Source: Luteolibacter sp. Y139 (GTDB taxonomy: Bacteria; Verrucomicrobiota; Verrucomicrobiia; Verrucomicrobiales; Akkermansiaceae). Taken from it: DNA of 64,000 nt. Shown here one piece after another: positions 11,209-52,582 of the stretch. The notes under the pieces were generated by a model. It did not search any database, was not told the DNA's origin, and saw nothing but the letters and a program-made list of their open reading frames with translations. How positions within the stretch are numbered: position 1 is the stretch's first letter; every line of letters begins with the position of its first letter. Both the position numbers and the translations under genes were made by a program. The DNA is taken from NCBI RefSeq assembly GCF_038066715.1, contig NZ_JBBUKT010000009.1, positions 248,001-312,000 on the forward strand, read 5' to 3'.

Positions 11209-12645
11209 TTATCCCATCACCCACTCATCGGCATTGAGAAGGTGGTCGAAATAATCCGATGCCTCAATGGATGGGTCCAGTTCGCCGGAATGGATCAGAA
11301 TGGTGCGGACGGTCTGGGTTTTCGGCAGCTTCAGGCGGGCGACCTTTTCGCGGACTTCGTCGATTACGCCCGGGCCGATGTGACGGCGGAATTTCAGCTC
11401 GCAGACGTAGACCGCCTGGCGGGTCCGGATCATGAGGTCGACCTGACAGGCCTGCAGGCGCAGGGTTTTGCCTTGGGCATAGGGACCGGCATTGAGGACG
11501 GCGCGGTTTTTTAAGCCGAGGCGCTCGAAGACCTCGTCGAGGCTATCGAGCACGAGCGTCTCGAACTGATGGCCCATGATGGCGTCCCAGGCTTCCAGCG
11601 TCTCGATGGGCTGGCGCTGATAGAGTCCCTTGAGGATGCGTTCCTTGGCCGGTTCGATGTACTTCAGGTAAAAGCGGAGGTAGTTGTCAGCGATGCGGTA
11701 GCGGTGATCGCGAGGGCGGGTCTTGCCGGTGGCGGGGTCGAAGAAGCGGTCCTTGCGGAGGAAGCCGGCGAGTTCCAGATCGGTGAGCGCGTCGCCGAGG
11801 CTGCCGCCGCGTTCGCGTTCGAGTGCCTCGCTGATTTGCTGAAGGGATTTCGGTCCGCTCACCAGCGTGCTGACGATGTCCCGGCAGGTCGCGGCGCGGC
11901 GGGTGAAGATATCATGGAAGATGCGCTCGAATTCGTGGAAGAGCATGCCGCCCTGATGAAAGCAGAGGCGCTCGATATTTTCCTCGGCACTGCGGGTGGG
12001 CACGATCTGCTCGAGATAGCTGGGCACGCCGCCGGTGACGGCGAGGACGCGCCATTTGTCGGCGGCGGCCACCCGGGAAGCGCGCTTTCCCCAGAAGGCG
12101 ACGCATTCGGCGAGCGGCAGCGGCTTGAGATGGAATTGCCACGAACAGCGTCCGACAAAGCCGGTGCTATTGAGGATGTTTTCCTCGATCCATGAGGATA
12201 CCGAGCCGCACAGGACGAGGGTTAGGCCAGGGATTTTGGAGAAAAGCTGGTCCCACGCGGTTTTCAAATGACCGGCGAAGTCCTGGTCACCGATGGCCAT
12301 CCAGGAAATCTCATCGAGCAGCACAACCACCGAGCCTTTTGTAGGAAGTTGGCTGGCGAGGAGTTGGAAGGCAGTGGGCCAATCCGGCAGCACCACGCGC
12401 GGAGCCGCGGTCTGTTTTGTTAGATGGCCGGAGAAGGAATCGAGCTGTTCCTGTTTGGTGATTCCTTCGCGCGGCGGCAGGCCGATGAAGGAGAGGAAAT
12501 GATTGGCTGCTGCGGCACACTCTTCGATGAAACGGCTCTTGCCGACCCTCCGGCGACCTTGGCAGGTCACCAGAGAGGCGGTTCTTTTTTTCAGGAGTTC
12601 GGTGAATTCACGGCGCTCCGCCTGCCTGCCGATGTAGCCGTCCAT
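11209..12645 (-). CDS. AAA ATPase with C-terminal DUF234-type nuclease-like domain
   Basis: 478 residues. Walker A is GRRRVGKSR near residues 30-38, Walker B is VVVLLDEISW near 107, and a sensor-1-like GSVSSWIEENIL follows. After a winged-helix segment (about 290-345) the C-terminal domain contains VDLMIRTRQAVYVCELKF, the D...ExK arrangement of restriction-like nucleases seen in DUF234 proteins of the archaeal-type ATPase family. These genes are widespread, patchily distributed and often suspected to be mobile or toxin-like; no function is proven for this one. The ATG at 12645 sits directly against three tandem hairpins, leaving no ordinary Shine-Dalgarno site. Confidence 0.85.
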   Translation of the reverse strand: MDGYIGRQAERREFTELLKKRTASLVTCQGRRRVGKSRFIEECAAAANHFLSFIGLPPREGITKQEQLDSFSGHLTKQTAAPRVVLPDWPTAFQLLASQLPTKGSVVVLLDEISWMAIGDQDFAGHLKTAWDQLFSKIPGLTLVLCGSVSSWIEENILNSTGFVGRCSWQFHLKPLPLAECVAFWGKRASRVAAADKWRVLAVTGGVPSYLEQIVPTRSAEENIERLCFHQGGMLFHEFERIFHDIFTRRAATCRDIVSTLVSGPKSLQQISEALERERGGSLGDALTDLELAGFLRKDRFFDPATGKTRPRDHRYRIADNYLRFYLKYIEPAKERILKGLYQRQPIETLEAWDAIMGHQFETLVLDSLDEVFERLGLKNRAVLNAGPYAQGKTLRLQACQVDLMIRTRQAVYVCELKFRRHIGPGVIDEVREKVARLKLPKTQTVRTILIHSGELDPSIEASDYFDHLLNADEWVMG

Positions 12646-12802
12646 GTCGATTTGGTGCCGGAAAGTGGCAGAGAATTTCTGGCACGAAATCGACGTTTTG
12701 TCAATTTGGTGCCGGAGATTGGTGGTAATTTTCGGGCACGAAATCGACGATGTGTTGATTTGGTGCCTGAAATTCGGGCGGTTTTTTCGGCACGAAATCG
12801 AC
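12646..12802. repeat. Three tandem 54-bp units, each an imperfect palindrome
   Basis: The motif TGGTGCC recurs at 12653, 12707 and 12761 and its partner GGCACGAAATCGAC at 12681, 12735 and 12789, so the period is exactly 54 bases three times. Inside each unit the left arm (T-rich, ending GGTGCC) is the inverse of the right arm (GGCACGAAAT...), giving a hairpin of about 47 bases with a divergent loop and six-base spacers. Arms are conserved and loops are not, which points to selection on the fold or on a protein site. The array fills the space between the 3' end of the GMC gene and the start codon of the ATPase gene. Confidence 0.9.
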
Positions 12803-37480: not shown

Positions 37481-37641
37481 GGGGTGGGAAAGGAACCTTT
37501 AAGTTTGCTTTAGCGTATCAGGGCGGGAAACGGGTTCAAGCTTCCGTCCTTGGCGAAGGTGGGACCGATCCTCGAAAATTAACCGTGGAATGCTGCCTAA
37601 CGGGGCAAGTTTCGCATGGACAAGGCCCGGCGCTTGAATCG

Positions 37642-37652
37642 TTGTCATACAA
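37642..37652. promoter_or_regulatory. Palindromic TTGTCATACAA, candidate operator
   Basis: Perfect TTGT-CAT-ACAA palindrome (13 bases with the flanking G and C) 11 bases before the GH76 start codon. Palindromes of the type TTGT-N3-ACAA are bound by some GntR/FadR-type repressors. No such regulator gene is in the window, and a single chance palindrome cannot be excluded. Confidence 0.3.
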
Positions 37653-37662
37653 CTTACCCGAG

Positions 37663-40600
37663 ATGCCAAAGCTTCATTTCCTCCGGTGGTTTGCCGTGAT
37701 CGCTTTGATGGTGCTGCTCCCGGCGTCGTCGTTGAGCGCATTCACCGATGCGGATGCCGACCTGGCCTACGATGCCTACAACACGGCCTTCTATCAGACG
37801 CAGACGAATGGCCGCGCCTACTACAAGGAGACCACCGATGGCGGGCATGCGTGGTTCTGGGGTCAGGCGAACATGATGGAGATGGTGGCGGATGCGTATG
37901 ATCGCGCGCCATCGCAAGAGAAGCGGGACCGGCTGGCGGCGCTTTGCAAGGGCTTCATGGACTACCACGGCACGAGTTGGTCGTGGAATGAGTACAACGA
38001 CGACATCATGTGGGCGTGCATCGTCTTCACGAAGACCTACCTCGCCACGGGTGACACGCAGTATCTCAGTCGCGCGACGGCGAACTTCGATGTGGTGTGG
38101 AATCGCGCGTGGGCGACGAGCGCTGGGGGTGGGCTGTATTGGAAAGGCACCGGCGGATCGAGGAATGCGTGCGTGAATTCGCCGGCCGCGATCGTGGCCA
38201 CCATGCTCTACGATATTACGGGCAACACGGCCTACCTCGACAAGGCGATGAGCATCATCGCCTGGATGGACAGCACGTTGGTCCGGACCACCGGAGCGAT
38301 CGACGATAACATCGGCAGCACCGGAACGATCACGGATTGGCACTTTACCTATAATCAAGGCACCTACGTCGGAGCCTGCAGCGCGCTCTACCGGATCACC
38401 GGGGAGCTTCCCTACCTGGACAATGCCATCAAGGCCGCGCGCTACACCCGGGACAGCATGTGCAATGCGGCGGGGATTTTCCCGAACCACGGGACCTCGG
38501 GTGATGGCGGCGGTTTCAATGGCATCGGCATCCGGTGGATCACCCGGATGGTGCGGGACCAAGGGCTGTGGGATGAGTTCTACCCGTGGCTGAAGGTGAA
38601 TGCCGACACTGCGTGGAATATCCGCCGGGTGGCAGACAATCTTTCGTGGGCGAACTGGCGTGCGGCCACGCCGGCGGACTTGCTGTATGGGTTTGGTTGC
38701 TATGGCTCGGTCACCGCCATGCAAGTGGTGCCATCGACGGATCCGTCCGACATCACCGGTCTAGCAGGTCCGGCGGCCGCCTCGATCTATCAGGCGGAGA
38801 ATGCGTCGCTGCAGGGAGGCGTGGTAGTCGCGACGGCGGTCTCCGGTTTCCGCGGCACGGGCTACGCGGATTACATCAATAGCCTGGGCGAAACGATCAC
38901 CTTCACGGTGACGGCGGAGAAGGCGGGCCAGCATTGGGTTTCCTTCCGCTATGGCAATGGCGGCACGGTGAATCGTCCGGTGAAGATGAGGGTGAATGGC
39001 GTGGTCAATCAGGATCTTCCCTTCGCGCCGACCGGTGCGTGGACCTCGTGGTGGTATAGCCCCGGCGTGCTGGTCACGCTGAATGCCGGCTCGAATACAA
39101 TCGCGCTCACGCCGAACCAGAACTCCGCACCGAATGTGGACCTGCTGTATTTGTGCGCGGCTCCGAAGAGTGCGCCGCCGGGGGCGACGATGCTTTTCGA
39201 TGGCACGGCGTCATCGCTGACGGCGAATTGGAAGCGCGATGAAAACAGCACCGCGCCGACGTGGACCGTTTCCAATGGTGCGATGAGCGTGGTGCCGACG
39301 CCTGCTCGAAACGACATCTCCACGGTGAATGCGTATCGCGACTACAAGCTGCATCTCGAGTGGCTCGCGCCGCCGGGGGGACTTGGCCAGGACGCGGCGA
39401 ACTCCGGGGTGAAGCTGCAAGGTCGCTATGAGATCCAGATCCTCAACACGCCGCGTGGACAGACTTCGTGGCCGACTACCGCGGCGGCGATTCTTGGAAA
39501 GAAGGCGGCTGCCGCGAATGCGAGCCTGGGGGCGGGGCATTGGCAGAGCTACGACATCGATTTCACCGCGCCGCGGTGGAATGGCAGCGTGAAGACCGCC
39601 GATGCACGCGTGACCGTTCGTTGGAATGGAGTGCTGGTGCAGGACAATGTCGCGCTGACGGCGGTCACGGATGGCTCGCTTGCGGAGGCACCGGGTCTTC
39701 AGCCGATCCTATTGCAGGCGGCCACGAGCACGGCCAGTGGTCCGGTTCGCTTCCGCAATGTGTGGGTGCTGCCGAAGCCGACCACGGTTTATGAAGCCGA
39801 GCTCGCGACCATGGCCGGGCCATTGACCGCCTCGGGGAATGCCGGATTCAGCGGCACGGGTTTCGCGGACTATGGCACGAACGTTGGTGAGACAATCACT
39901 TGGAATGTGGAAGCGGAGAAGACGGGCGATCATTGGATCTCCTTCCGCTATGCGAATGGGGTGACCACCACGCGCCCGCTGAATCTCACGGTGAATGGCA
40001 ATGCGATCCAGCAGTTGCCCTTCGGTCCGAGTGGAGCATGGACGAGCTGGATCTTCACGAACGGTGTGAAGGTTCCTCTAACCGTCGGGACCAATACCAT
40101 CCGGCTCACGTCCACGATCACTAATGGGCCGAACGTGGACTACCTCTACGTCAGCGGTCCGCCGCGCTCGGCACCGAGCGGTGCGCTGGTGTTGTTCGAT
40201 GGCACGCAAGCCTCACTCACGCAGAATTGGCAGCGCGATGAAGATCACAGCGCGCCGAATTGGACGGTGGCGCAGGGAGCGATGGGTGTGGTCGCCTCGC
40301 CATCGAGGAATGACCTTTCGACCAAGGTCGGGTTCAAGGATTTCCAGCTTCATCTCGAGTGGCTCTCGCCGCCGGGAGGCTCGGGCCAGGATGCGGGGAA
40401 CTCGGGCGTGAAGCTCCAGCGCGCGTATGAGATCCAGATCCTGAATACGGCGGCGGGCCAGGCAGCGGCCAACGATGGTGCCGGTGCGATCTTCCAGCAG
40501 AAGTCGCCGGATACGAACGCGAGCGTGGGTGCGGGGCAGTGGCAAACTTACGATGTCGAGTTCACCGCCGCGAAGTGGTCGGGGAATGTAAAGACCGCGA

Positions 40601-41241
40601 ATGCCCGGGTGCGTGTTTATTGGAATGATGTGCTGGTCCACGATGACGTGGTGCTTTCACAGGGCACGGGTGGAGCTGCCGAAGCGCCGGGCTTCCAGCC
40701 GCTGCTGTTAGAGGCGCTTGCCAATAGCGCCAGTGGTCCGGTGCAGTTCCGGAACATCTGGGTCACGGGCGAATCCGGGGCGATCAGTCCGGTCACGCCG
40801 CAGGAGTTCTGGACCGAGTGGATGGACACGTCTGCTTTGACCGGCATTGATCGCGATGCGAACCGCGATACCGATGGCGACGGGCTCCCGAATTTCTGGG
40901 AGTACGTCACCGGCGGAAATCCGAAATCTTCCGATCTCACCGGCCCCGGTGGCGAGAGCCGTACGCCACGCATGGCGCTGGTGAATGACAGTGGGAATCG
41001 CTTCGCCGAGTTCACTTTCCTTCGCCGTGCGGATGCTGCGACGCGGGGCCTGGTGATTTCAGCGGAGTCTTCCACCACGCTCAACTCGACGCCGTGGACT
41101 GCGCGCACAATCACGCAGGTCGGCTCGCCGGTGCCGGTGGGTGATGGGACGCTGGAGCGAGTGAAAGTGCGGGTGAACCTGCCGCTGGGTGCGGAGACGA
41201 GGATGTTCCTGCGCTTGAAGGCGGATGTCGCGGCGGAGTGA
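37663..41241 (+). CDS. Secreted modular GH76 protein: GH76, CBM, DUF1080, CBM, DUF1080, C-terminal module
   Basis: 1192 residues; signal peptide MPKLHFLRWFAVIALMVLLP. GH76 (about 30-365) has the double Asp YNDDIMWA at residues 113-114, the catalytic pair expected in alpha-1,6-mannanases. Then CBM35-like (370-500; SIYQAENASLQGG), DUF1080/3-keto-disaccharide hydrolase-like (506-707; TMLFDGTASSLTANW, YEIQILNT), a second CBM35-like (708-840) and second DUF1080-like (840-1045; LVLFDGTQASLTQNW). The last 120 residues carry NRDTDGDGLPNFWEY, a Ca-binding-like loop, and a beta-rich end RMFLRLKADVAAE. The two CBM-DUF1080 units are clear duplicates. The start at 37663 is set by the signal peptide. Likely mannan or related polymer use. 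Confidence 0.85.
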   Translation: MPKLHFLRWFAVIALMVLLPASSLSAFTDADADLAYDAYNTAFYQTQTNGRAYYKETTDGGHAWFWGQANMMEMVADAYDRAPSQEKRDRLAALCKGFMDYHGTSWSWNEYNDDIMWACIVFTKTYLATGDTQYLSRATANFDVVWNRAWATSAGGGLYWKGTGGSRNACVNSPAAIVATMLYDITGNTAYLDKAMSIIAWMDSTLVRTTGAIDDNIGSTGTITDWHFTYNQGTYVGACSALYRITGELPYLDNAIKAARYTRDSMCNAAGIFPNHGTSGDGGGFNGIGIRWITRMVRDQGLWDEFYPWLKVNADTAWNIRRVADNLSWANWRAATPADLLYGFGCYGSVTAMQVVPSTDPSDITGLAGPAAASIYQAENASLQGGVVVATAVSGFRGTGYADYINSLGETITFTVTAEKAGQHWVSFRYGNGGTVNRPVKMRVNGVVNQDLPFAPTGAWTSWWYSPGVLVTLNAGSNTIALTPNQNSAPNVDLLYLCAAPKSAPPGATMLFDGTASSLTANWKRDENSTAPTWTVSNGAMSVVPTPARNDISTVNAYRDYKLHLEWLAPPGGLGQDAANSGVKLQGRYEIQILNTPRGQTSWPTTAAAILGKKAAAANASLGAGHWQSYDIDFTAPRWNGSVKTADARVTVRWNGVLVQDNVALTAVTDGSLAEAPGLQPILLQAATSTASGPVRFRNVWVLPKPTTVYEAELATMAGPLTASGNAGFSGTGFADYGTNVGETITWNVEAEKTGDHWISFRYANGVTTTRPLNLTVNGNAIQQLPFGPSGAWTSWIFTNGVKVPLTVGTNTIRLTSTITNGPNVDYLYVSGPPRSAPSGALVLFDGTQASLTQNWQRDEDHSAPNWTVAQGAMGVVASPSRNDLSTKVGFKDFQLHLEWLSPPGGSGQDAGNSGVKLQRAYEIQILNTAAGQAAANDGAGAIFQQKSPDTNASVGAGQWQTYDVEFTAAKWSGNVKTANARVRVYWNDVLVHDDVVLSQGTGGAAEAPGFQPLLLEALANSASGPVQFRNIWVTGESGAISPVTPQEFWTEWMDTSALTGIDRDANRDTDGDGLPNFWEYVTGGNPKSSDLTGPGGESRTPRMALVNDSGNRFAEFTFLRRADAATRGLVISAESSTTLNSTPWTARTITQVGSPVPVGDGTLERVKVRVNLPLGAETRMFLRLKADVAAE

Positions 41242-41242
41242 C

Positions 41243-41276
41243 TGATGAGGGCAGGGGACACTTTTGTCCCTCATCA
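41243..41276. terminator. Possible terminator hairpin after the GH76 gene
   Basis: TGATGA ... TCATCA encloses GGGACA-CTTT-TGTCCC, starting two bases after the stop codon. The structure is strong, with an inner 6-bp stem plus an outer one, but no T-tract follows, so factor-independent termination is uncertain. Confidence 0.5.
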
Positions 41277-41379
41277 AAGTGGTTGGCAACGATGCGTTGC
41301 CGTCATGTTTGATGCAATAGATGCCAATCGTCGTTTGACGGGCCAGTGAGAGGGGGAAGGGTTCCGACTGATTTCCCCC

Positions 41380-42795
41380 ATGCTTCGGTTCTCATCCATT
41401 CTTGCTGTCTTTGTTTTGGCGAGCGTCTGGTGCTTTGCTGCTGTTCCCGCGGGCAGCAATCTCGGGTTTGAGAATGGTAACACGGGCTGGACTTTCCAGC
41501 TCGCGGGAATAGAGAGCGGGCCTTGTTATGAAGGAACGCACTACGCCGATTTGCGGAATGGCTACATCGAGCAGACCTTCACCGGACTGACTCCCGGAGC
41601 GACGCACACGCTGCGGCTGGCGTGCCTGTCGCAGGCGCCGAATGGCGAGCTTCACCACGCGGAGATCCTCATCGATGGGGTGGTGATCGCCGGCCTTCAT
41701 CTCGGTCGCGCGAGTTCGGGGGAGGTGAATGAGTATCTCTCCGCGAATGCGTTCGAGTTCATCCCGGCGAAGGCAAGCGTGACGCTGCGGATCCGCTCGC
41801 TGCAATCCGGCAGTGCAGGGCTCATGATCGATGCGGTGCGCATCGATGCCGGACCCGCTCCGGCTCCGCCTGCTGCCGCGTGGTCGAGCCTGACGACGGT
41901 GGCGGATTCGCGGGGCGGTCGGCGGCTGGTGAATGGCAGCTTTGAGAGCGCCATCGTCAGTCCGGCTTCGAGTCCGGACAATTGCGGCCCGGCGGGCAAT
42001 GATCACTTGAGCGGCCTCGCCTTGCCCGGCTGGCGGGTGACGCGGGGGAATGTGGATGTCATTCAATACGACAATGCGCTGGCGCCCGACGGTGCGAATG
42101 CACTCGATACGAATGGCCACGGCCCCGGCGGCATCGCGCAGACCATCACCGGCTTGTCGCCCGGTGCGGTCTACACGTTTTCCCTGCTCCATGCGCGGCA
42201 CATCTACTGGGGCACCGCGCCGATGACCGGTGAGGTATGGGCGAACGGTCGCAAGGTCGCCTCGCTGGTCCGCACGATCAATCAAGGGTGGGACGATGGC
42301 TACGGGCTCGCGGAGGTCCCGGTGCTCGCCTCGGCCAGTGGTAGTCTCACGCTGGAAATCCGCTCCACGATCAACGATCAGGGCGGTAGCATTCTCTACG
42401 ATGACCTCCGCCTGAAGGAGGGTGGCAATGCCTTCCTCGCCTGGTCACTTCATCATGGCGTCACTGCCGATCCACAGGCGGACGACGATCGGGATGGAGT
42501 GGTGAATGCGGTCGAGTTCCTGCTGCGTGGCGATCCGCGTTCGCGCACCGTGTTGCCCTTGATCCAGGGAAACCAGATCCAGGTGCCGCTCTCGGGCTTG
42601 GCACGTGCCGCCGGCTTCACCGATGTGCTCAAGACCAGCCGCACGCTCGGGACATGGGTCAATGCCGGCACGCCGGGCTGCGGTGTCAGTCTCATTTCCG
42701 ATAGCTCGGCGCCGGGAGCCGATGGGGTGCGGGTCTATCAAATCGCGCCCGGCGAGCGGCGGATGTTCTGGCGGCATGAGGTGACGGCTCCGTAG
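41380..42795 (+). CDS. Secreted protein with two carbohydrate-binding-like domains and C-terminal module
   Basis: 471 residues; signal peptide MLRFSSILAVFVLASVWCFA. Two similar jelly-roll domains of the DUF642/galactose-binding type: NLGFENGNTGWTFQLAGIES with YIEQTFTGLTPGATHTLRLA (about 25-155), and LVNGSFESAIVS with IAQTITGLSPGAVYTFSLLH (about 180-345). The final 115 residues have ADDDRDGVVNAVEFLLRGDP and end ERRMFWRHEVTAP, the same C-terminal module as the GH76 protein. Likely binds polysaccharide outside the cell; an enzyme activity is not visible. It stands 139 bases after the GH76 gene on the same strand. Confidence 0.75.
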   Translation: MLRFSSILAVFVLASVWCFAAVPAGSNLGFENGNTGWTFQLAGIESGPCYEGTHYADLRNGYIEQTFTGLTPGATHTLRLACLSQAPNGELHHAEILIDGVVIAGLHLGRASSGEVNEYLSANAFEFIPAKASVTLRIRSLQSGSAGLMIDAVRIDAGPAPAPPAAAWSSLTTVADSRGGRRLVNGSFESAIVSPASSPDNCGPAGNDHLSGLALPGWRVTRGNVDVIQYDNALAPDGANALDTNGHGPGGIAQTITGLSPGAVYTFSLLHARHIYWGTAPMTGEVWANGRKVASLVRTINQGWDDGYGLAEVPVLASASGSLTLEIRSTINDQGGSILYDDLRLKEGGNAFLAWSLHHGVTADPQADDDRDGVVNAVEFLLRGDPRSRTVLPLIQGNQIQVPLSGLARAAGFTDVLKTSRTLGTWVNAGTPGCGVSLISDSSAPGADGVRVYQIAPGERRMFWRHEVTAP

Positions 42796-42887
42796 GTCCA
42801 AGGGGGACGGCATTCAGCGGGTATATTTGGCGGCAGGCATCGGAATTGCCGTGCGGGGCCTGATTCCATTAGTGTTCGCCCGCCCTT

Positions 42888-44375
42888 ATGAATATCCGGC
42901 CTGCTTTCCTTCGCCTCAGTGTGGTTCTCGGCACGCTGATGTGGCTGGGGCTCGGGGTTTGCGAGGAGGCGGGCGCGCGGGCCGGGGGAGCGGGGGGGCG
43001 TAGTTCCGGCAGCAGGAGCAGCAGCCGCAGCAGTGGTGGCAGTTCGCGCAGTAGCGGTGGTAGCTATCGCAGCAGTGGCGGTGGTGGGTTTTATCGGGTC
43101 TCGGGTTCCGATGCCGGTTGGTTCAAGTGGCTGTTCCTGGGAGTGGGTGTGGTGGTCCTGGTGATCATCATCCGCCGTGCGATGGAGGCCAACGAGGAGG
43201 AGATGCCCCTGCTGCCGAGTCCGCCTGCACCGGTTGGCGAGGAGGCTTTCCTGGCGGCGAATCCGGATTTCGATCCGGCGTTGTTCAAGGGCAAGGTCCG
43301 CAGCGCGTTCCTGAAGATCCAGGAGGCGTGGGCGGCGCAGGACATCTCGCAGATCCGCCCCTTCATCTCGGATGGCATGTACCAGCGCTTCGCCACGCAG
43401 TTCCGTATGATGGGGCTGCTGAAACAACGCAACGTCATCGAGAACGTCCGGATCTTCGGCGTGCACCCGGTCTTCTTCCGTACCGATGGCGCGTTCGATG
43501 CGATCGACGTGTGGGTGGGCGCCGACATGACCGACTCCTTCACCTGCGAGCTGGACCCTTCGATGAATTCGCAGGGTGGCGATCCCTTCGTCGAATACTG
43601 GTCCTTCATCCGCAAGCGCGGGGCGGCGGACTCCGGCTTCAATCTCTTCGCGGCCCAGAACTGTCCCTCGTGTGGTGCGGAGCTTCCGCGGGACATGGGC
43701 GAGCTGTGCCGTTGCTCGCACTGCCAGGTGCTGGTGAATAGCGGCGAGTTCGATTGGGTACTCGCGGAGATCACCCAGGAGGGCGACTACGGTCGATACT
43801 CGCGCATGGGCTCGCGCGTTTCCCCGGAGTTGCCGGATGCCATCGCTGCGGTGGCTCCGGAGGCACCGGACTTCTCGCAGCAGCTCGCCGAGGACAAGGC
43901 CAGCAATGCGTTCATGCAGATCATGACCGCCTATGCTACGAAGAAGCCGGCATCCGTCCGCCGCTTCGTGACCGATGAGCTCTTCGGCAGCATCTCGGCG
44001 AATATTTCCCCGGACCGCACCATCATCTTCAACCGGATCTACCTGAACGAATCCGTGCTGCTCGACGTGACGCGCGATGAGGGGGAATCAAAGCATCGGC
44101 TCGCCGTCGGCCTGTCCGCCAGCATGCAGCGCGTGGAGCTTCTGTCCGGAGGACGTCTTGCCTTGGTCGATTCCGAGGAGCAGCGCACCAATTTCGTCCT
44201 GTCCATGGAGCGGGACATCCACGCGGTGCCGGAGAAGGGATCGCTGTATCAGCACCAGTGCGCCAACTGCGGCGGGCGCGTCGGCGACTCCATCGACGTC
44301 AACTGTCAGTACTGCGGCTCGCCGCTGAACTCGACTCGCAATGAGTGGATCGTGTGTGGATTTGGGGAGAGCTGA
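42888..44375 (+). CDS. Membrane protein with two Tim44-like domains and two zinc ribbons
   Basis: 495 residues. An N-terminal signal/anchor and a Ser/Gly/Arg-rich disordered stretch (about 30-70) are followed by a membrane helix (WLFLGVGVVVLVIIIRRAME). Two Tim44-like domains follow (about 115-285 and 325-470). Each is followed by a zinc-ribbon: CPSCGAELP...CRCSHC, and CANCGGRVGDS...CQYCG; both end in a similar W-V-x-(A/C) strand (FDWVLAEI, EWIVCGF). This double Tim44 plus ribbon design is seen in uncharacterised bacterial proteins. Location is membrane-bound with the soluble part probably in the cytoplasm; function unknown. Confidence 0.8.
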   Translation: MNIRPAFLRLSVVLGTLMWLGLGVCEEAGARAGGAGGRSSGSRSSSRSSGGSSRSSGGSYRSSGGGGFYRVSGSDAGWFKWLFLGVGVVVLVIIIRRAMEANEEEMPLLPSPPAPVGEEAFLAANPDFDPALFKGKVRSAFLKIQEAWAAQDISQIRPFISDGMYQRFATQFRMMGLLKQRNVIENVRIFGVHPVFFRTDGAFDAIDVWVGADMTDSFTCELDPSMNSQGGDPFVEYWSFIRKRGAADSGFNLFAAQNCPSCGAELPRDMGELCRCSHCQVLVNSGEFDWVLAEITQEGDYGRYSRMGSRVSPELPDAIAAVAPEAPDFSQQLAEDKASNAFMQIMTAYATKKPASVRRFVTDELFGSISANISPDRTIIFNRIYLNESVLLDVTRDEGESKHRLAVGLSASMQRVELLSGGRLALVDSEEQRTNFVLSMERDIHAVPEKGSLYQHQCANCGGRVGDSIDVNCQYCGSPLNSTRNEWIVCGFGES

Positions 44376-44442
44376 GAGCTCCTTCGTTCTCTAATTTTCC
44401 GGGCACTTTAACGGGCGATGAGGTAAGGTGGCGGAACCTCCC

Positions 44443-44769
44443 ATGAAAACGTGCCTCCCATTGGTCGCCACGGCCCTGCTGGCAGGGGCCGCCAGCGCAG
44501 GCGACATTACCATCTACAACGACCAACCCTTTCCGCGCCTGATCCGCCTGGGTCACAAGGGTAAGCTCTACGGTGGCTGGATCTACAGCGGCCAGCGGAT
44601 CACCGTGCATGTCGATGAGACCCGCAAGGGAAAGCCGATGCTGCTGGTGGACACTCGCGAGTCGAATAGCAGTGGCAATAACTCCAAGTGGACCATGAAG
44701 GCTTACCCCTTGGCGAAAAAGGCCGAGCCCTTGTTCTATAACATGTCGTGGTTCCCGCGAGGCGTGTGA
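44443..44769 (+). CDS. Small secreted hypothetical protein
   Basis: 108 residues; signal peptide MKTCLPLVATALLAGAASAG. The mature domain is a compact beta fold (ITIYNDQPFPRLIRLGHKGK, KLYGGWIYSGQRITVHVDET) ending in NMSWFPRGV. No family recognised. It is convergent with the giant gene ending at 44794 and about 67 bases after the Tim44-like gene. Confidence 0.65.
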   Translation: MKTCLPLVATALLAGAASAGDITIYNDQPFPRLIRLGHKGKLYGGWIYSGQRITVHVDETRKGKPMLLVDTRESNSSGNNSKWTMKAYPLAKKAEPLFYNMSWFPRGV

Positions 44770-44786
44770 GTGACGATGGCCTGGAC

Positions 44787-44811
44787 GTGATCTTCACCGC
44801 GGCAAGATCAC
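44787..44811. terminator. Hairpin at the convergent 3' ends
   Basis: GTGATCTT and AAGATCAC form a perfect 8-bp stem around a 9-base loop. It lies between the stops of the plus-strand gene (44769) and the minus-strand giant gene (44794) and includes the latter's stop codon. It could act in both directions, although no T-tract follows on either side. Confidence 0.4.
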
Positions 44812-47800
44812 CACGTTGTCGACGCGTGTCGCGGGTGGAGGATTGCCGCCATAGGTGCCGAAGCCGAATTGATCGCCGGCTTGGAGACTGAAGCCGGGGA
44901 CGGGGACGTTCGTGAAGATGGTGTTTCCGTTAGAGATGAGCGACAGGCCCGTGGCAGGGGTGTAGCTGATGTTGATCGGAACGGGAGATTCCGAATTGAA
45001 GGCATACACCGGCAGCGAGGCGACCATGGTGCCATTCACCATCACGCGATAGCCATTCGGCAGCGGAGGATCGGCGAAGGGATAGAAGGTCTCAAAGGCG
45101 ATGGTCAGATTATGCGGCGTGGCGGGGCCATTCAGTCCCCAGACGCCGGTGCCGAGATCGCCGACGGAGAAGGTCATGCCATTGCCGGCGATGAGCACGC
45201 CGGTGAGCATCTGGAGATTGAAGGTCGCGTTGAAACCGGTTTGGCCCGTCCATGCGGTGACGCCGTCAAGCACTGCCGAGCCAGCTTGGCCCGGATTGCC
45301 ATTCGAGAGCTGGATGGTCCCTTCCGTCATCACCGCAGTGCCTCGCAAGGTGGCTCCGGTCGCGGTGCTGAAGTCATTGCTGTAATCATTCGCGACTTGT
45401 GTGCCGACGAGGCGGATGAAGTACTTCTGCGGGGCACTCGGCAACGTCACCGAGGTTCGCCGCACGCCGCCGGTCAGTTGCTCCACGATGGAACCCAGCG
45501 GGGCTGCCGTGGCCCATGTGTTGGTGGCGGGATTGCGGCTGCCGACACGTTGCCACGATCCGAGGTTGGTCGAGCCTTCCACCGACCACTGCACGTCCGG
45601 GCGCAGCGTCTGCGGGAGATTGAAGCGGGCTTGGGCAGAGGGCGAACCGGGAAGCACCTTTGGCAGGTCGCCTTGGCTGCCACCGTTCAGGCCGTATTCG
45701 ATGAGGTTGGGGATGCCGTTGTGATTGGGATCGTCATTCGCGCCGCGCTGGCCTTCCGGTAACGAAGAGACCCAGGTGGTGAAATCCTCGGTGCTGCCTT
45801 GCAGCGGGATATCGATGATCTGGCCGTTCTGGCCAAGCGGGGCGAGGTTGTCGGTCCTCAGGCGCAGGGTGGCGGTAAACTTGCCTGCCGTCGGCGGGGT
45901 GAAATTCACCGTGTAGCTCTTGGACCAGCCGAGATCGATCGTCGATGGTAGTGCCGTGGCCAGTGAGAAGGCCCCTGCGGTATCGTTCAAGATCTGCGCA
46001 CTGAGCACGCTCAAGCGAGCCAGCTTCGGTTGGTCGTAAACGGCCAGGTCCCATTCGATCGGCAGCGAGTCGCCATTGAGAATGTCGAAGCTCGCTTGCG
46101 AGGTTTGGCCGGGATTCGTCACCGGGCTGGTGAGGGTGCCTCCCGTCAGGCCGAAGACGAAGGGATTGGGTCCCACAATGCGGCCGTAGACATACACGTT
46201 GCTGGGCCGCGGGATGGAATCAATGGCAGGCAGGAAGTTGCCAGAGGCGAGCAGCACTTCCGATTTATAGGGCTGGTCCTTTGTCGGCACGGAGACCGAG
46301 ACGGAGACGGGAGCGTCCGTTTTGGCGCGGTTGCTGTAGCTCTTCGATTCGCCGGGGAGGAAACCGTTGTTAGGCAAGTAGCCACTGGAGATCGCGAGGC
46401 CGCTGCCCTTCGAATGCGGATTGCCGTACTGGTTGGAGACCTTGAAGGAGAAGGTCGGCGAGCTGCCCTGGCGATAGTAGCGGACGATGTTCCGGTCGGC
46501 GGGCGTCTCCATCAGGTACTCGGGAGTATTCACCGGATACTCGGAGGTCGTCTCCTCCAGCACCAGGGACGGGTTCCCGTTGTCATTCAGGTAAAGGACA
46601 CCCTGCGGAGCCGCGCCGTTGTAGAGCGTGCCGCGGACCGGCGTGCCCTTGATGGTGCGGACGGCTCCGTAGGGTGACCACTGTGCGCTCACCTCGAAGG
46701 GCTTGCTCTTGTCCATTGTGGTCAGCCACAGCTTGCCCTGGGGATTGTTTGTCTGCACCGGGCCGGTGCCACCGGCGGTGATCGCGGGATCATAGAGATA
46801 GCCCGCGTTCATCATCAGCGGCTGGGGTGTCGGCAGGTAGGCCACATTGCCGTTGGTGCCTTGTTGGGCGCTATCGGCGGGATCGACTGCGGCGATCTTC
46901 GGCGAGGGGAGCGTGGTGCCAGAGCGGACGTTGACGAAGGCCAGCAGGTCGTGGTTCGGGTAGAAGTTGATCAGGTCCAGCGGATCCATGCGGAAGACCA
47001 CGGCATCGCAGTTCGAAGGCGGCGCGAGCTTGGTGGCGAGCTGCGTGAAGGTATCGGGTAGCGGGTTGCTGACGCCATAGGAGGCCGGGCCGCCGATCAT
47101 CTTGGCGAAGCGCGGGGTCACGCCGGGCTTCAGGTTGGGCAGGGGCGGGAAGGGATTGCCGAGCGGGGAAACGTTCGAGACGTAGGGATTCTGCGCCGCG
47201 GCGAAGGTGCCGAAGGGCGCGTTCTGGGAGGTCCCGCTGAAGGAGTGGATCTGCACAAGGCCTGCCGGGGCGCTGCCGCCGCCGGAGACGTTGAATTGAG
47301 CGCCTTGGGGGTAGTACTCCGAGGCGACGATCTGGATATTGCCGCCGGAGCCACCCGAGCCGGTACCGCCCTTGCCGCCGGTGCCGCCCTTTCCTCCCGG
47401 GCCGCCGGGACCACCGGCACCGGATTGCAGGCTCAAGCTGGGATTGCCAGGAGAGCCGGGGCTGCCCGCCACTCCGTTCGTCCCAGCGGTGCCGTCCTCA
47501 CCGGCCACGCCCGCGGTGCCCTTGGCCTCCCAAGTGGCGGCATTGAAGAAAACCCCGCGTACCAGCACCTGGATGCCGCCGCCACCGGCACCACCGCGGC
47601 CACCCACGCCGCCCTTGCCACCCGCGCCCCCGGCACCGCCTTTTCCGCCGTTGCCGCCGGCCACGACGGGGACGGCGATACCGCCCGAACCATTCGCGCC
47701 GCCGCCACCACCACAGCCGCCGACCCCGGCACCGAGGCCGAAGCCGCCGGTGGCTCCAGCGCCACCGCCGCAGCCCGCGCGCAGGTGAATCCCGGTGCCC

Positions 47801-48759
47801 GCCAGGGTATCGATCAGGCCATTCGGGCCGTTCACGCCGGTGGTGCCGTCGGCGCCGATGATGCCGGGGTTTCCCGGTCCGCCATTGCCGCCGCCGAAGG
47901 GTGTGGAGCTGCCCTGGATGCCCGGCTGTCCGCCGGTGCCGCCCGCGGGGATCGCTCCATTGAAGAGCACCACGGGGCCGCCGGTCGCGAGACCCGAGTA
48001 GCCCTGCCCGATGCCGAGGAACCACTGGTCGCCCTGCCCGACGCCGCCCGAGCCGCCGGCGGTGGAGGAGGCGTAGGTATTCTCCGGCGTGATCTGGACC
48101 GAGCCGACCTGCACATTGTAGATCGCCATCCGCTGGCCGTCCTCGCCCTTGGTCGCGGCACCGTTCTGGGTGCCACCTTGCCCGACCAGATAGCCCGGCG
48201 GGTCCTGCTTGGTATCGCGGAAATTCAGCGTCTCGATCGGCCGCGGGGTGGGCACGCCGCCATCACCGCCACCGGCCATGCCCAGCGCGCCGATCGCCGA
48301 GACGCCGACGTAGGAGCCGGACTCGAAGGTGACATCGCCGCCGAATTCCAGCACCACCAGGTGCGAGCCGGCGGACCAGATGCTCTGGTTCGCGGTCAGC
48401 GTGAATTGGTCCGCGGAGACGAAGAACCGCTCGGCCACCGGCGCGGGTGCCGAGGCCGTGTCGAAGCGGTCCAGGGTCACCGTGCCGAGATTGTGGATGG
48501 TGGCGTTGTTGATGTTCTGGATGCCGCTGCCGGAAATGAAATGGATGGCGGTATTCGCGCCGAAGCGGGCGTAGATCGCTCCGGTCACCGCGCTCATGTC
48601 CTCCGCGGTCGCGCCGTCGGTGCGCAGCAGGAAGGCATCGTGCACGGCCATCGCCGTCGGTGACGAAAGCGTCAGGGCTCCTAGCAGGATCCACAGGCCG
48701 GAACCTTGGTGACGGGTGTTAGAGAGGGTCCGGGGTCGCGGGGCATCGGAACTTTTCAT
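44794..48759 (-). CDS. Giant secreted glycine-rich protein with C-terminal module and lectin-like domain
   Basis: 1321 residues; the N-terminal region (LWILLGALTLSSPTAMAVHD) is a signal peptide after a basic lead. Residues about 150-480 are collagen-like or PGRS-like, almost pure Gly with Ala, Pro, Asn and Thr in GGxGGxG runs. Then a beta-rich region, a choice-of-anchor-D-like repeat (NPGQTSQASFDILNGDSLPI), the DxDxDG-type module (NDDPNHNGIPNLIEYGLNGG, ending KYFIRLVGTQV) and finally a legume-lectin/ConA-like domain (about 1140-1321: NDYSNDFSTATGATLRGTAV, GMTFSVGDLG, DQFGFGTYGG). Adhesin or matrix protein is the likely role. It is divergent from a LytTR regulator at 48960. Confidence 0.75.
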   Translation of the reverse strand: MKSSDAPRPRTLSNTRHQGSGLWILLGALTLSSPTAMAVHDAFLLRTDGATAEDMSAVTGAIYARFGANTAIHFISGSGIQNINNATIHNLGTVTLDRFDTASAPAPVAERFFVSADQFTLTANQSIWSAGSHLVVLEFGGDVTFESGSYVGVSAIGALGMAGGGDGGVPTPRPIETLNFRDTKQDPPGYLVGQGGTQNGAATKGEDGQRMAIYNVQVGSVQITPENTYASSTAGGSGGVGQGDQWFLGIGQGYSGLATGGPVVLFNGAIPAGGTGGQPGIQGSSTPFGGGNGGPGNPGIIGADGTTGVNGPNGLIDTLAGTGIHLRAGCGGGAGATGGFGLGAGVGGCGGGGGANGSGGIAVPVVAGGNGGKGGAGGAGGKGGVGGRGGAGGGGIQVLVRGVFFNAATWEAKGTAGVAGEDGTAGTNGVAGSPGSPGNPSLSLQSGAGGPGGPGGKGGTGGKGGTGSGGSGGNIQIVASEYYPQGAQFNVSGGGSAPAGLVQIHSFSGTSQNAPFGTFAAAQNPYVSNVSPLGNPFPPLPNLKPGVTPRFAKMIGGPASYGVSNPLPDTFTQLATKLAPPSNCDAVVFRMDPLDLINFYPNHDLLAFVNVRSGTTLPSPKIAAVDPADSAQQGTNGNVAYLPTPQPLMMNAGYLYDPAITAGGTGPVQTNNPQGKLWLTTMDKSKPFEVSAQWSPYGAVRTIKGTPVRGTLYNGAAPQGVLYLNDNGNPSLVLEETTSEYPVNTPEYLMETPADRNIVRYYRQGSSPTFSFKVSNQYGNPHSKGSGLAISSGYLPNNGFLPGESKSYSNRAKTDAPVSVSVSVPTKDQPYKSEVLLASGNFLPAIDSIPRPSNVYVYGRIVGPNPFVFGLTGGTLTSPVTNPGQTSQASFDILNGDSLPIEWDLAVYDQPKLARLSVLSAQILNDTAGAFSLATALPSTIDLGWSKSYTVNFTPPTAGKFTATLRLRTDNLAPLGQNGQIIDIPLQGSTEDFTTWVSSLPEGQRGANDDPNHNGIPNLIEYGLNGGSQGDLPKVLPGSPSAQARFNLPQTLRPDVQWSVEGSTNLGSWQRVGSRNPATNTWATAAPLGSIVEQLTGGVRRTSVTLPSAPQKYFIRLVGTQVANDYSNDFSTATGATLRGTAVMTEGTIQLSNGNPGQAGSAVLDGVTAWTGQTGFNATFNLQMLTGVLIAGNGMTFSVGDLGTGVWGLNGPATPHNLTIAFETFYPFADPPLPNGYRVMVNGTMVASLPVYAFNSESPVPINISYTPATGLSLISNGNTIFTNVPVPGFSLQAGDQFGFGTYGGNPPPATRVDNVVILPR

Positions 48760-48959
48760 GGGAGGGGGTCGCTGTTTGGGGTGGAAAAATCCTCACCTGC
48801 GGCGAGGAGTGAGGGGCGTCAGTCCGGCATCCGCCGTGCTGGCGCAGGACATGGCGCTGTCAGATCGACGATGTTCTGGTGAAGCGTCCACGCACGGCGG
48901 AAGGAGAAATCGACAATCCGCCGGTAGCGTTCGATAAGCTGCACGCGTCTTACCTATCG

Positions 48960-49922
48960 ATGAAGGAAGCATCCCCCCGAAGCGCACCACGGAAGCCCAG
49001 GCAAGTTTCACCGCCGGAGAAGAAACCGGCGAAGCGCGACCAGCCGGATGGCCCTCCTTCCTCTCCTCTAACCGAGGCCGACCTGTGGCAGTCGCTCGCG
49101 CAGATCGCTGCCGGGGCGGAGGCTCCGCTGGAGCGGGCGCTGGCGGTGCTGGGGCCGTTTTACAAGGCGGACCGCGCCTGGGCCGGGCGCTACAATGACG
49201 CGCTCACCCACTTCTGGGGCTGCAGCGAATGGCTCGGGCCCGACATCGCCTCGCACATGCACGAGATCCAAGGCGTGCCGGTGGATCTCATCGGCGAGGC
49301 GCACCGGAAGTTCCTCCGCCATGAGCCGGTGATCATTCCCGATGTCGAGCGGATGCCCCGCCAACTCCGCGGCCTGCAGGCGGAGCTGCGCCGGGAAAGC
49401 GTGCGCTCGACCGTGGCCTTCCCGCTGGTGCGGGAGGGGAAGCTGACCGGCTTCTACGGCTTCGATCACGTGTGGGAACTGGCGAACTGGAGCAAGGCGG
49501 ACATCGACCGGCTGCCCGCGCTTGGCAGCTACCTCGCGCGGCTGTTGCACCGCCACTTGTATCTCGCGCTGCCCGCCGACCTGCCTCCGCCGCCGCAGCG
49601 GTCGATCTTCGTCACCGAGCACAGCGGGATGAAGGCGCTGTCCAGCGATGCCGTGCTCTTCATCCGGGCCGATGGCGACTACAGCCGCGTCCACCTCACC
49701 GATGGCGGCAGCTACTTCGAGCGGCGGAGCCTGAAGAACTGGATCGGGCAACTTCCGCGCGAGCGGTTCCTGCGGGTGCACCAGAGCTACCTGGTGAATG
49801 GCGCGCGGATCGAGCGGCTCGACCGGGGACCGCGGTGGACGTTGAAGCTGCAAGGGCATCCGGAGGAGATTCCCGTGGGCCGGGCGTTCCGGCATGCGGT
49901 GAGGTTGCACATGGCTTTCTAA
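48960..49922 (+). CDS. LytTR-type transcriptional regulator with GAF-like domain
   Basis: 320 residues. A disordered Lys/Pro-rich N-terminus (about 1-45) precedes a GAF-like sensor (WQSLAQIAAGAEAPLERALA; VRSTVAFPLVREGKLTGFYG, about 50-200) and a LytTR DNA-binding domain (about 220-320: LSSDAVLFIRADGDYSRVHL, RFLRVHQSYLVNGARI, EEIPVGRAFRHAVR). No receiver domain, so it senses directly rather than by phosphorylation. A GTG start at 48879 is possible; 48960 is the first ATG. It is divergent from the giant glycine-rich gene 200 bases away, so control of that gene is plausible but unshown. Confidence 0.8.
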   Translation: MKEASPRSAPRKPRQVSPPEKKPAKRDQPDGPPSSPLTEADLWQSLAQIAAGAEAPLERALAVLGPFYKADRAWAGRYNDALTHFWGCSEWLGPDIASHMHEIQGVPVDLIGEAHRKFLRHEPVIIPDVERMPRQLRGLQAELRRESVRSTVAFPLVREGKLTGFYGFDHVWELANWSKADIDRLPALGSYLARLLHRHLYLALPADLPPPPQRSIFVTEHSGMKALSSDAVLFIRADGDYSRVHLTDGGSYFERRSLKNWIGQLPRERFLRVHQSYLVNGARIERLDRGPRWTLKLQGHPEEIPVGRAFRHAVRLHMAF

Positions 49923-50012
49923 AGTAATCGGTGCTTTTGGGCTACAGCCAAGGAGGGGATACTACATTCCTATCACCTATCTACAACATTAGCAGATAGA
50001 AAGGCAATTGGC

Positions 50013-52346
50013 TCATGGGCCGTCGCCTTTGTTGGGATTTGAGCTTTTTTTCCTGGCTATTCTTCGAGGCTTTCCATCATTCGAGCTCCGCTCATTTTGG
50101 GCACTCGCCTTGGTTTCGGTGCCGCTTTCTGGGCTCGGAGAAGACTCTTTGAGTCTACGTGTCGTACCCAACTGTATCCGAGATTTTTTAATGATCTCTT
50201 TCCTCGCGTCTGGTGATGCAATTACAGTTGCAAAATCATTGTGAGCAAGTTCTAGTTGGCCTTCATTCTGAAACATTATGCCACGGTTAAATAAGGCTAA
50301 TATTCTGCGGTCGGTTGAAGCCGTGGGTGTTTCAATCACAGTTGTATAGTCTATTATCGACTTCTGGCGGTTTCGTTTTTCTCCATAGCAGTAAGCTCGG
50401 CCCCAAAGAGCATTTGTTTTCCTTTGGTTAGGCGCGTCGGGCATGTTTATGATCGAGGTGTAATCTGAAATGGCTTTGTTGTAGTTCTTCCTTTTTTGAT
50501 GGATTTGAGCTCGATTGTAGTAGGCTTTTGAGACCGCATCAGGTCGGTCTTGGGATATTTCGATGGCCGATGTGTGATCAACAATTGCCTTCTCTGGTTC
50601 TCCTGCTTTCGCATGGCACAGCGCTCGATTAATGAAAGCGTTGGCTCGGATTGCATTGGAAGCGTCGGGAATACTAACTGCGGCAGTGTAGTCGTTGATT
50701 GAGTTCGCTACTTCATTTTTGCTGGAGTATATTAGAGCCCGATTGAAATGGGTTTTGGCCCGGAGATCCGGCGGAGAAAAAGTTGACTCGATAACAGCAC
50801 TATAATCGGCAAGTGCTTTTTCCGGATTTCCAGTTCTCCAAAAACAGACTCCTCGGCGAAAACGACCGAGGGCTAAGTCGGCTCCGTGCAGAGCATGGTT
50901 CTCAATAAGCGTATCGTAAACGCCCAATGCTAATGCATAGTTGCTTTCCCAATAGCGAAGATCGGCTTGACGCAGGAGTTGGGCTGTAGCCTCAGAATCC
51001 ACACCTCCTTCGGTAGACGCTGCGGCCTCTGCAGCCGAAGATTGCGCTCGCAAATCAGGATCGCTTTTGCGAGCGAAATAGCGCTCATGCGCCTCCTTGA
51101 GTAAATTAAGGTTTTTTAGCAAGACTTCTGCTGGGGTGATTTCGGCACCAGAAAAGGCATTTGGTGGGTCCACTTCATCGCTCAGCCTAGGCAAGGGAAG
51201 GGCACTGCTCAGGTCTATTTTTTCCATTTCTCGGCTCAAAAGCATCAGAGGTTCCACCAAGAGCTCAGGAAGATGCAGGCTAGGAGCAAGTGCTGTATAG
51301 AGACGGGCCATGAAATCGCTTGCATCGTCTATTTTTACAAAGAAGGCGTCCCCAGCATGCTGCTCAAGAAAGTTAGCGATTTCCGGTGGGAGCGATGATT
51401 CATTGCGCCCGAGCCAATAAAGACCATGAGGAAAGTGTTGGCATCGTCTTAGAGCGTCGGTAAGGCAATCCTCCCATCCGCCAGAACCGAGAACTATGAC
51501 ACCATGCTGACCTAAATAACCTGCTAGGCTTGCCGAATGTCGTTCGCGCATGGAATCAAGTTCGGCCTTGGTATTTGCGAGAAAGGGCCGATGTATGCTG
51601 CCATGAACATGAACAAGTTGAATTGCTGTATGATCGGATTCTCCTGTGAGATCTAACTGAAGAAGATCGGGCTGATCGATTGCGTAGTATAGCATGCTGA
51701 CGAGTTGTAAGCTGACTTGTAGCAAGGGGTCGAAATTGGTTGTTAAAATTGTTCGGGCGAATGGTCGTCTCGCTCTGTAGCGTGCGGTTGGTTCGGGATT
51801 CGTGTTGCCCCGAGGTTGAAGCGCCAAAAGCGAAGCTAAATAAAAGTGCGTTCCATTCAGTTTTACTTTTCCATCGGTTCCCATTGTCAGCTCACGGAAA
51901 AATCGGCGCATTCTAGCGATGTCTTCGAAACCGCCGAGCGCTTCGCGATTAAACACCGCTCGGTACGCCGAGCCACAGTCATCGGGTAGCCCCTCTTGAT
52001 TCAATATGAAGTTGATGAGCGGTTCCTTGAGTGAATCTTTGCGATCTTTGTTTCTGAAATAAAAATCGTTCCAAAAATGCTTCGCGCGAGCTTTCAGCAG
52101 TGATTTATCCTCGGTGGGATACAGTTCAGAATGAAATTGCTCGGGTAAATCATCTGCATCTAGGTGGAGAAGCCAATCGGGGATACATTCGTTAACCAGC
52201 TCTCTTGTCATTGGTGCTACGCCAGCACTAGCTCCAGCGCCGAGAATGAGACTGTAAGGAGGAGTCGTCGGTGCATTCTTTTCGCGTAAGACACGACACA
52301 CCCGAGCAATCATCTCGTCTAATGTAAGGCGGGAAAACGAAGCCAT
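50013..52346 (-). CDS. SIR2-like NADase fused to TPR repeats, candidate defence protein
   Basis: 777 residues, cytoplasmic. The SIR2-like fold occupies about 1-360: LILGAGASAG (residues 33-42) for NAD binding, TTNFD (202-206) with the catalytic-type Asn, VHVHGS with His248, and VLGSGGWED. A helical linker leads to about seven TPR units from residue 465 to 700 (e.g. WESNYALALGVYDTLIEN; GNPEKALADYSAVIES; GEPEKAIVDHTSAIEI). The C-terminus is basic and disordered. SIR2 NADases with repeat partners are common in phage-defence systems that deplete NAD. The gene is markedly AT-rich (21 G/C of 60 in 50461-50520, versus 41 of 60 in 49501-49560), a sign of recent acquisition. Confidence 0.8.
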   Translation of the reverse strand: MASFSRLTLDEMIARVCRVLREKNAPTTPPYSLILGAGASAGVAPMTRELVNECIPDWLLHLDADDLPEQFHSELYPTEDKSLLKARAKHFWNDFYFRNKDRKDSLKEPLINFILNQEGLPDDCGSAYRAVFNREALGGFEDIARMRRFFRELTMGTDGKVKLNGTHFYLASLLALQPRGNTNPEPTARYRARRPFARTILTTNFDPLLQVSLQLVSMLYYAIDQPDLLQLDLTGESDHTAIQLVHVHGSIHRPFLANTKAELDSMRERHSASLAGYLGQHGVIVLGSGGWEDCLTDALRRCQHFPHGLYWLGRNESSLPPEIANFLEQHAGDAFFVKIDDASDFMARLYTALAPSLHLPELLVEPLMLLSREMEKIDLSSALPLPRLSDEVDPPNAFSGAEITPAEVLLKNLNLLKEAHERYFARKSDPDLRAQSSAAEAAASTEGGVDSEATAQLLRQADLRYWESNYALALGVYDTLIENHALHGADLALGRFRRGVCFWRTGNPEKALADYSAVIESTFSPPDLRAKTHFNRALIYSSKNEVANSINDYTAAVSIPDASNAIRANAFINRALCHAKAGEPEKAIVDHTSAIEISQDRPDAVSKAYYNRAQIHQKRKNYNKAISDYTSIINMPDAPNQRKTNALWGRAYCYGEKRNRQKSIIDYTTVIETPTASTDRRILALFNRGIMFQNEGQLELAHNDFATVIASPDARKEIIKKSRIQLGTTRRLKESSPSPESGTETKASAQNERSSNDGKPRRIARKKSSNPNKGDGP

Positions 52347-52582
52347 GGACTACGTCTATCTTAGGGCGTTGCCGCTAGCGAGGCCAATCGATTCACGCTG
52401 TCATTGAAACTTGCTTCAGGGCATCGTGGCTTCTAGCCCTTCGGAGATTGTCTTTCCCCCGAGAAAATCTAATTGGAGGTATGCTTCTAAATTGGAGCGT
52501 TGATAAGATGAGGCCGCAAAAGGTTGACCCTTGCAAAGGGAACTGAATTTGCCGATTGATCGCACCGAGAGGTAGCAGTGAA

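Follow-up and report, generated by a model that had tools for sequence, protein, structure and literature searches.

The 64-kb stretch of DNA analysed here, called the window, carries one intact gene that joins an N-terminal SIR2 domain to C-terminal TPR repeats. We propose that it probably encodes a single-protein anti-phage receptor, in which the repeats would sense the infection and the SIR2 domain would deplete NAD+. The predicted fold and an alignment with an experimentally proven NADase dyad support the SIR2 domain as catalytic-type, and horizontal transfer of the gene is well supported. Evidence for the candidate role in defence is indirect and comes from the settings of relatives, namely an Hma operon, a phage contig and an archaeal virus.

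The gene, its composition and its locus

The features of the gene are listed in Table 1. The reading frame starts with ATG and contains no internal stop codon, and an initial annotation of this DNA had given the single gene, its coordinates and its frame exactly as found here, including a numbering of Asn204 and His248 that is correct on the translated protein. The G+C content of the gene (44.6% at the third codon position) lies about 8 standard deviations from the mean of equally long segments from the rest of the 64 kb, for which the mean is 62.9%, the standard deviation 1.8 and the minimum 59.1%. Both neighbouring genes have 67% G+C and 75-84% at the third position. The initial annotation spoke of an AT-rich island with 35% G+C. 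Three lines of 60 bases do read so, but the figure misrepresents the whole gene with its 48.6%, which is AT-rich relative to the host and not in absolute terms. Scans for promoters and terminators at the gene gave nothing above chance.

Table 1. Features of the SIR2-TPR gene and its locus (positions in the window).
Feature	Position	Strand	Basis
Intact SIR2-TPR gene, 777 aa	50013..52346	-	ORF, Pfam; G+C 48.6% vs 62.9%
SIR2-like domain, residues 1-375	51222..52346	-	PADLOC PDC-S65 and SIR2-Ago profiles; predicted fold
Rossmann glycine motif GAGAS, residues 36-40	52227..52241	-	G36, G38, S40 invariant in alignment of SIR2 halves
TTNFD motif, residues 202-206, with catalytic-type Asn204	51729..51743	-	Invariant in 11 aligned proteins
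His248 codon of HGS motif	51603..51605	-	H248, G249 invariant; aligns with SPARSA H186
Linker with helices, residues 376-448, partly low confidence	51003..51221	-	AlphaFold2
TPR array, residues 449-735: seven helix pairs, 38-residue spacing, and capping helix	50142..51002	-	AlphaFold2, autocorrelation, unit profile
Disordered basic C-terminal tail, residues 736-777	50016..50141	-	pLDDT ~30; K/R 9/42
Segment missing at the collinear site in sister species G039; SIR2-TPR gene lies at its right end	37482..52546		Comparison with G039

A GAF-LytTR regulator flanks the gene on one side, and a histidine kinase together with a LuxR-type response regulator on the other. The intergenic gaps measure 90 and 209 bp, too short to hold a partner gene, which agrees with the earlier statement that no HerA, pAgo or TIR partner is adjacent. 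No recognised defence gene adjoins the SIR2-TPR gene in the window.

The genome of the sister species is collinear on both sides of the 15-kb segment, with 85-87% identity near the breakpoints. As 3.8 kb of different sequence (L111 8434-12260) is found in place of the segment, the site is variable. This replacement encodes a HicB-type antitoxin-like domain, and one of its ORFs, which has no Pfam match, is nucleotidyltransferase-like. The remainder of the 15-kb segment is normal in composition, and therefore the SIR2-TPR gene probably entered separately from it. Flanking direct or inverted repeats and tRNA genes were sought around the gene as marks of insertion and none could be found. That the gene was acquired by transfer, as already assumed in the initial annotation, is well supported by its foreign composition, its near-absence in close relatives and the region missing in the sister species. 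Window positions 44794-48759 encode a 1321-aa protein which is rich in Gly-Gly-Ala repeats, belongs to no Pfam family and is probably a secreted surface protein.

The SIR2 domain and the TPR array

The Pfam profile SIR2_2 scores 19.5 bits on the window protein, below the cut-off of 24.5 that the relatives L029, L030, L032, L034, L036, L038 and L124 pass. Residues 193-352 are matched by the PADLOC profiles PDC-S65 and SIR2-Argonaute. The best PADLOC match is PDC-S65 (E 2.8e-17), a PADLOC candidate of which only profile positions 138-289 of 592 are matched, corresponding to about 150 SIR2 residues. A profile built from the SIR2 halves of the family finds the SIR2 chains of SPARSA (SIR2-APAZ with a short Argonaute) with E 3e-12, and no deacetylase is found in the same search. 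The motifs GAGAS, TTNFD and HGS are intact as first described, the last one at residues 248-250. All 11 aligned proteins share N204, D206, H248, G249, N258, G287, G290, D293 and W311; in the viral relative L124 the TTNFD motif reads TTNLD. In the profile alignment N204 and H248 fall on N142 and H186 of SPARSA, and alanine mutants of both these residues lose NADase activity (PMC10781750).

The predicted structure agrees with this assignment. The AlphaFold2 model of the SIR2 part alone (pLDDT 75.7, pTM 0.74) has the Rossmann fold of SIR2 proteins and is most similar to SPARSA (Z 20.7), followed by SIR2-HerA, KomBC and ThsA at about 14 (top 14.6) and by Avs5, FAM118B and DSR2 at about 12 (lowest 11.7). 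Deacetylase-type sirtuins reach 12.9 at best. A structural comparison against viral proteins produced no match that could be used. Taken together, the dyad and the predicted fold uphold the earlier designation of the domain as catalytic-type.

The initial annotation also placed TPR repeats throughout the C-terminus, and both Pfam (TPR_1, E=2e-26) and the predicted array are in line with it. In the full AlphaFold2 model, for which 11 aligned family members served as input and whose mean pLDDT is 76.9, the TPR superhelix is confident and the SIR2 domain fair. The usual TPR unit comprises 34 residues. Autocorrelation at 114 bases indicates an unusual period of 38 residues in the window gene and in most relatives; the period in L036 is 34. 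Five to seven units were detected in the complete relatives. The DNA identity of adjacent units ranges from 80 to 95% (L034 95%, L036 92%, L038 86%, and L032 within this range), a sign of recent tandem duplication in these four genes. Variable unit numbers and near-identical units are as expected for a fast-changing sensor. The units of the window gene are only about 50% identical, which indicates that this copy is not freshly expanded. TPRs are common, and alone they are no proof of phage sensing.

Relatives and their genomic contexts

When GTDB genomes were scanned with a two-row alignment, ten close relatives emerged (L029-L038), which belong to Verrucomicrobiota, Planctomycetota (one Ca. 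Brocadiaceae) and Armatimonadota. With a protein from a viral contig (L124) the number of relatives is 11. TPR repeats are present in ten of these 11, the exception being L031, which is truncated before the TPRs and lies between transposases; in nine of the ten relatives L029-L038 the repeats follow the SIR2 domain. The signature of the family is a SIR2 subtype with a TTNFDPLLQxSLQL...DRPE block, combined with TPR units of mostly 38 residues. The window protein fits it, and L029, L030, L032-L038 and L124 are the members that it defines. In the tree the family clade, here without L124, is separated from an outgroup of other SIR2 proteins with a support of 100/100, and the window protein groups with three sequences from Verrucomicrobiota at no more than 40% identity. 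The protein of L124 can be aligned with the window protein along almost its entire length, at 29-31% identity.

The distribution of the family is very patchy. No other orthologue of the SIR2 half could be identified in the genus or the sampled family of the host, a single other one was present in 388 genomes of the phylum, and a class-wide profile search revealed none that is closer. The G+C content of L029, L030 and L036 lies 8-12 points below that of their flanks, as in the window gene, while that of L033, L034, L037 and L038 is ordinary for their hosts. Because of these four, a foreign composition cannot be a constant property of the family. The initial annotation had named vertically inherited homologues of normal composition as evidence against its reading, and the ordinary composition of the four is a point against it. 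A more distant SIR2-TPR gene (L064) stands alone and has 45% G+C in a genome of 70%.

Searches with the whole protein as single sequence gave mainly generic TPR proteins and were redone with the SIR2 half. Degenerate-pattern scans built on a single sequence found no relatives. Neither the search of viral contigs with the first two-row alignment nor that of phage sequences with the window protein alone resulted in a match.

The contexts of the relatives were inspected as proposed in the initial annotation. L035, from the Ca. Brocadiaceae, lies between HmaA-like helicase pieces with a DUF4143 ATPase and an HmaB methylase, all on the same strand. This is a defence operon of the Hma type, which is covered by PADLOC, although its HmaA is split or truncated. 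With one such setting among some ten cellular loci, and with housekeeping genes around most of the relatives, an enrichment in defence islands is not statistically supported. The loci of the relatives have no neighbour gene in common, which agrees with a one-gene system. In L036, from the Verrucomicrobia UBA6053, two genes directly downstream (12191-12790) resemble by eye an RHH antitoxin and a PIN toxin; the pair has no match in PADLOC.

The IMG/VR contig L124 encodes a SIR2 and TPR protein of 701 aa, whose gene follows the tape-measure gene at 3.6 kb and precedes the integrase by 4 kb. The region between tail genes and integrase is a usual site of accessory genes in temperate phages. The haloarchaeal Haloferax virus Halfgib1 also combines SIR2_2 and TPR in one protein near the integrase (HfxHg1_085). 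It resembles the family in this respect but is distant, with 24% identity to L035 over part of the SIR2 domain, and at 555 aa it is shorter.

Two further SIR2 proteins were noted. In a 14-kb Vibrio phage of the Vinavirales (PQ189367.1; L127 1354-3228) a SIR2_2 protein of 624 aa, labelled pAgo__SIR2APAZ by the depositors, adjoins the integrase. The genome that contains the window has a second SIR2 defence locus (L125 4425-7544; G000:C2, ~758.4-761.5 kb), where a fused SIR2-APAZ-Argonaute protein of 1039 aa, matched over its full length by the PADLOC pAgo profile with 1288 bits, is encoded with a type III methyltransferase on one side and a GmrSD restriction enzyme on the other.

Proposed function and comparison with known systems

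In the receptor that we consider probable, the SIR2 domain would be an NAD+ hydrolase that is kept off in uninfected cells. By analogy with DSR2 and Avs5, the TPR superhelix may act as the sensor and bind a protein that either comes from the phage or belongs to the host and has been altered by the infection. Binding would change the arrangement or the oligomeric state of the SIR2 domains and thereby switch on NAD+ cleavage, and the infected cell, having lost its NAD+, would no longer support the phage. Genes of the family may travel between bacteria as single-gene cargo, also on phages, and copies borne by phages would act against competing phages.

The alternative with most in its favour, though we regard it as unlikely, is that the protein is a SIR2 NADase without anti-phage function. 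It would then be a stress- or toxin-like regulator with TPRs that bind a partner in the host, and its gene would be selfish or accessory. TPRs often bind host proteins, the relatives lie mostly among housekeeping genes, and one of them adjoins the putative toxin-antitoxin-like pair without family match. Against such a regulator speak the relatives in the Hma operon, the phage contig and the archaeal virus, the extreme patchiness of the family, and the nearest solved structures, which are phage-defence proteins. It is less likely still that the protein is an effector which depends on a partner encoded elsewhere or on a second messenger, with ThsA of Thoeris as the model. Action in trans is possible for effectors, and an adjacent partner gene is absent; however, the relatives are also without a constant neighbour, and in the window protein, whose C-terminus is wholly TPR, the search for domains revealed no nucleotide-binding one such as SLOG or macro.

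A canonical sirtuin-type deacylase, with TPRs selecting the protein substrate, shares the SIR2 fold, and deacetylases reach Z scores of about 12-13. This explanation appears very improbable, given that the four-cysteine zinc ribbon with its CxxC pairs is absent from the window protein, that the profile search finds SPARSA and no deacetylase, and that SPARSA stands well above the deacetylases in the fold match. It is equally improbable that the gene is what is left of a mobile element, dead or in decay: L031 is truncated between transposases, but the gene in the window is complete and has kept all catalytic-type residues as well as an undamaged repeat array.

Going beyond the single gene, we tentatively suggest, at somewhat less than even chances, that the family represents undescribed minimal receptors. 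In these a 38-residue TPR array would directly gate a SIR2 NADase without NTPase or partner, the arrays would expand and shrink quickly and so change the phage trigger, and phages would carry members to exclude competitors. If the proposed function is true, the gene would be a compact one-gene case of a repeat domain alone switching a SIR2 NADase, intermediate between DSR2 with its different repeats and Avs5 with repeats plus an NTPase. NAD+-depleting immunity would extend to Verrucomicrobiota, Planctomycetota and Armatimonadota, three phyla in which little work has been done on phage defence, and members with near-identical tandem units would allow the evolution of an immune sensor to be studied directly.

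SIR2-like NADases are well known in defence. DSR2 is, like the window protein, a single protein with an N-terminal SIR2 domain and long C-terminal helical repeats, which in DSR2 recognise the phage tail tube protein and thereupon turn on NAD+ depletion. It is longer, with about 1000 aa vs 777, and its C-terminal helical region is different; no DSR2 chains are among the phmmer or profile matches, and the likeness is that of the SIR2 fold only (Z ~11.7). Avs5 (AVAST type 5) shares the N-terminal SIR2 effector and C-terminal TPR/Sel1 repeats, but has a central STAND NTPase whose ATPase activity is required (PMC12931631), whereas the window protein contains neither a Walker A motif nor a Pfam NTPase family. 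The adjacent HerA ATPase of SIR2-HerA (Nezha) and the SLOG/macro sensor domain and TIR partner of Thoeris ThsA are absent at the window locus. The combination of SIR2_2 and TPR is named, and left uncharacterised, in the figure legend of a FAM118 sirtuin tree (PMC12700824). A literature search, with subscription journals mostly outside its scope, revealed no paper on a SIR2-TPR defence protein without an NTPase. SPARSA has the closest SIR2 domain by profile and by fold and the same Asn-His dyad; the window protein differs from it by the TPR array and by the lack of an APAZ domain or an adjacent Argonaute. The window gene is a variation on the known SIR2 defence theme, and not a new class.
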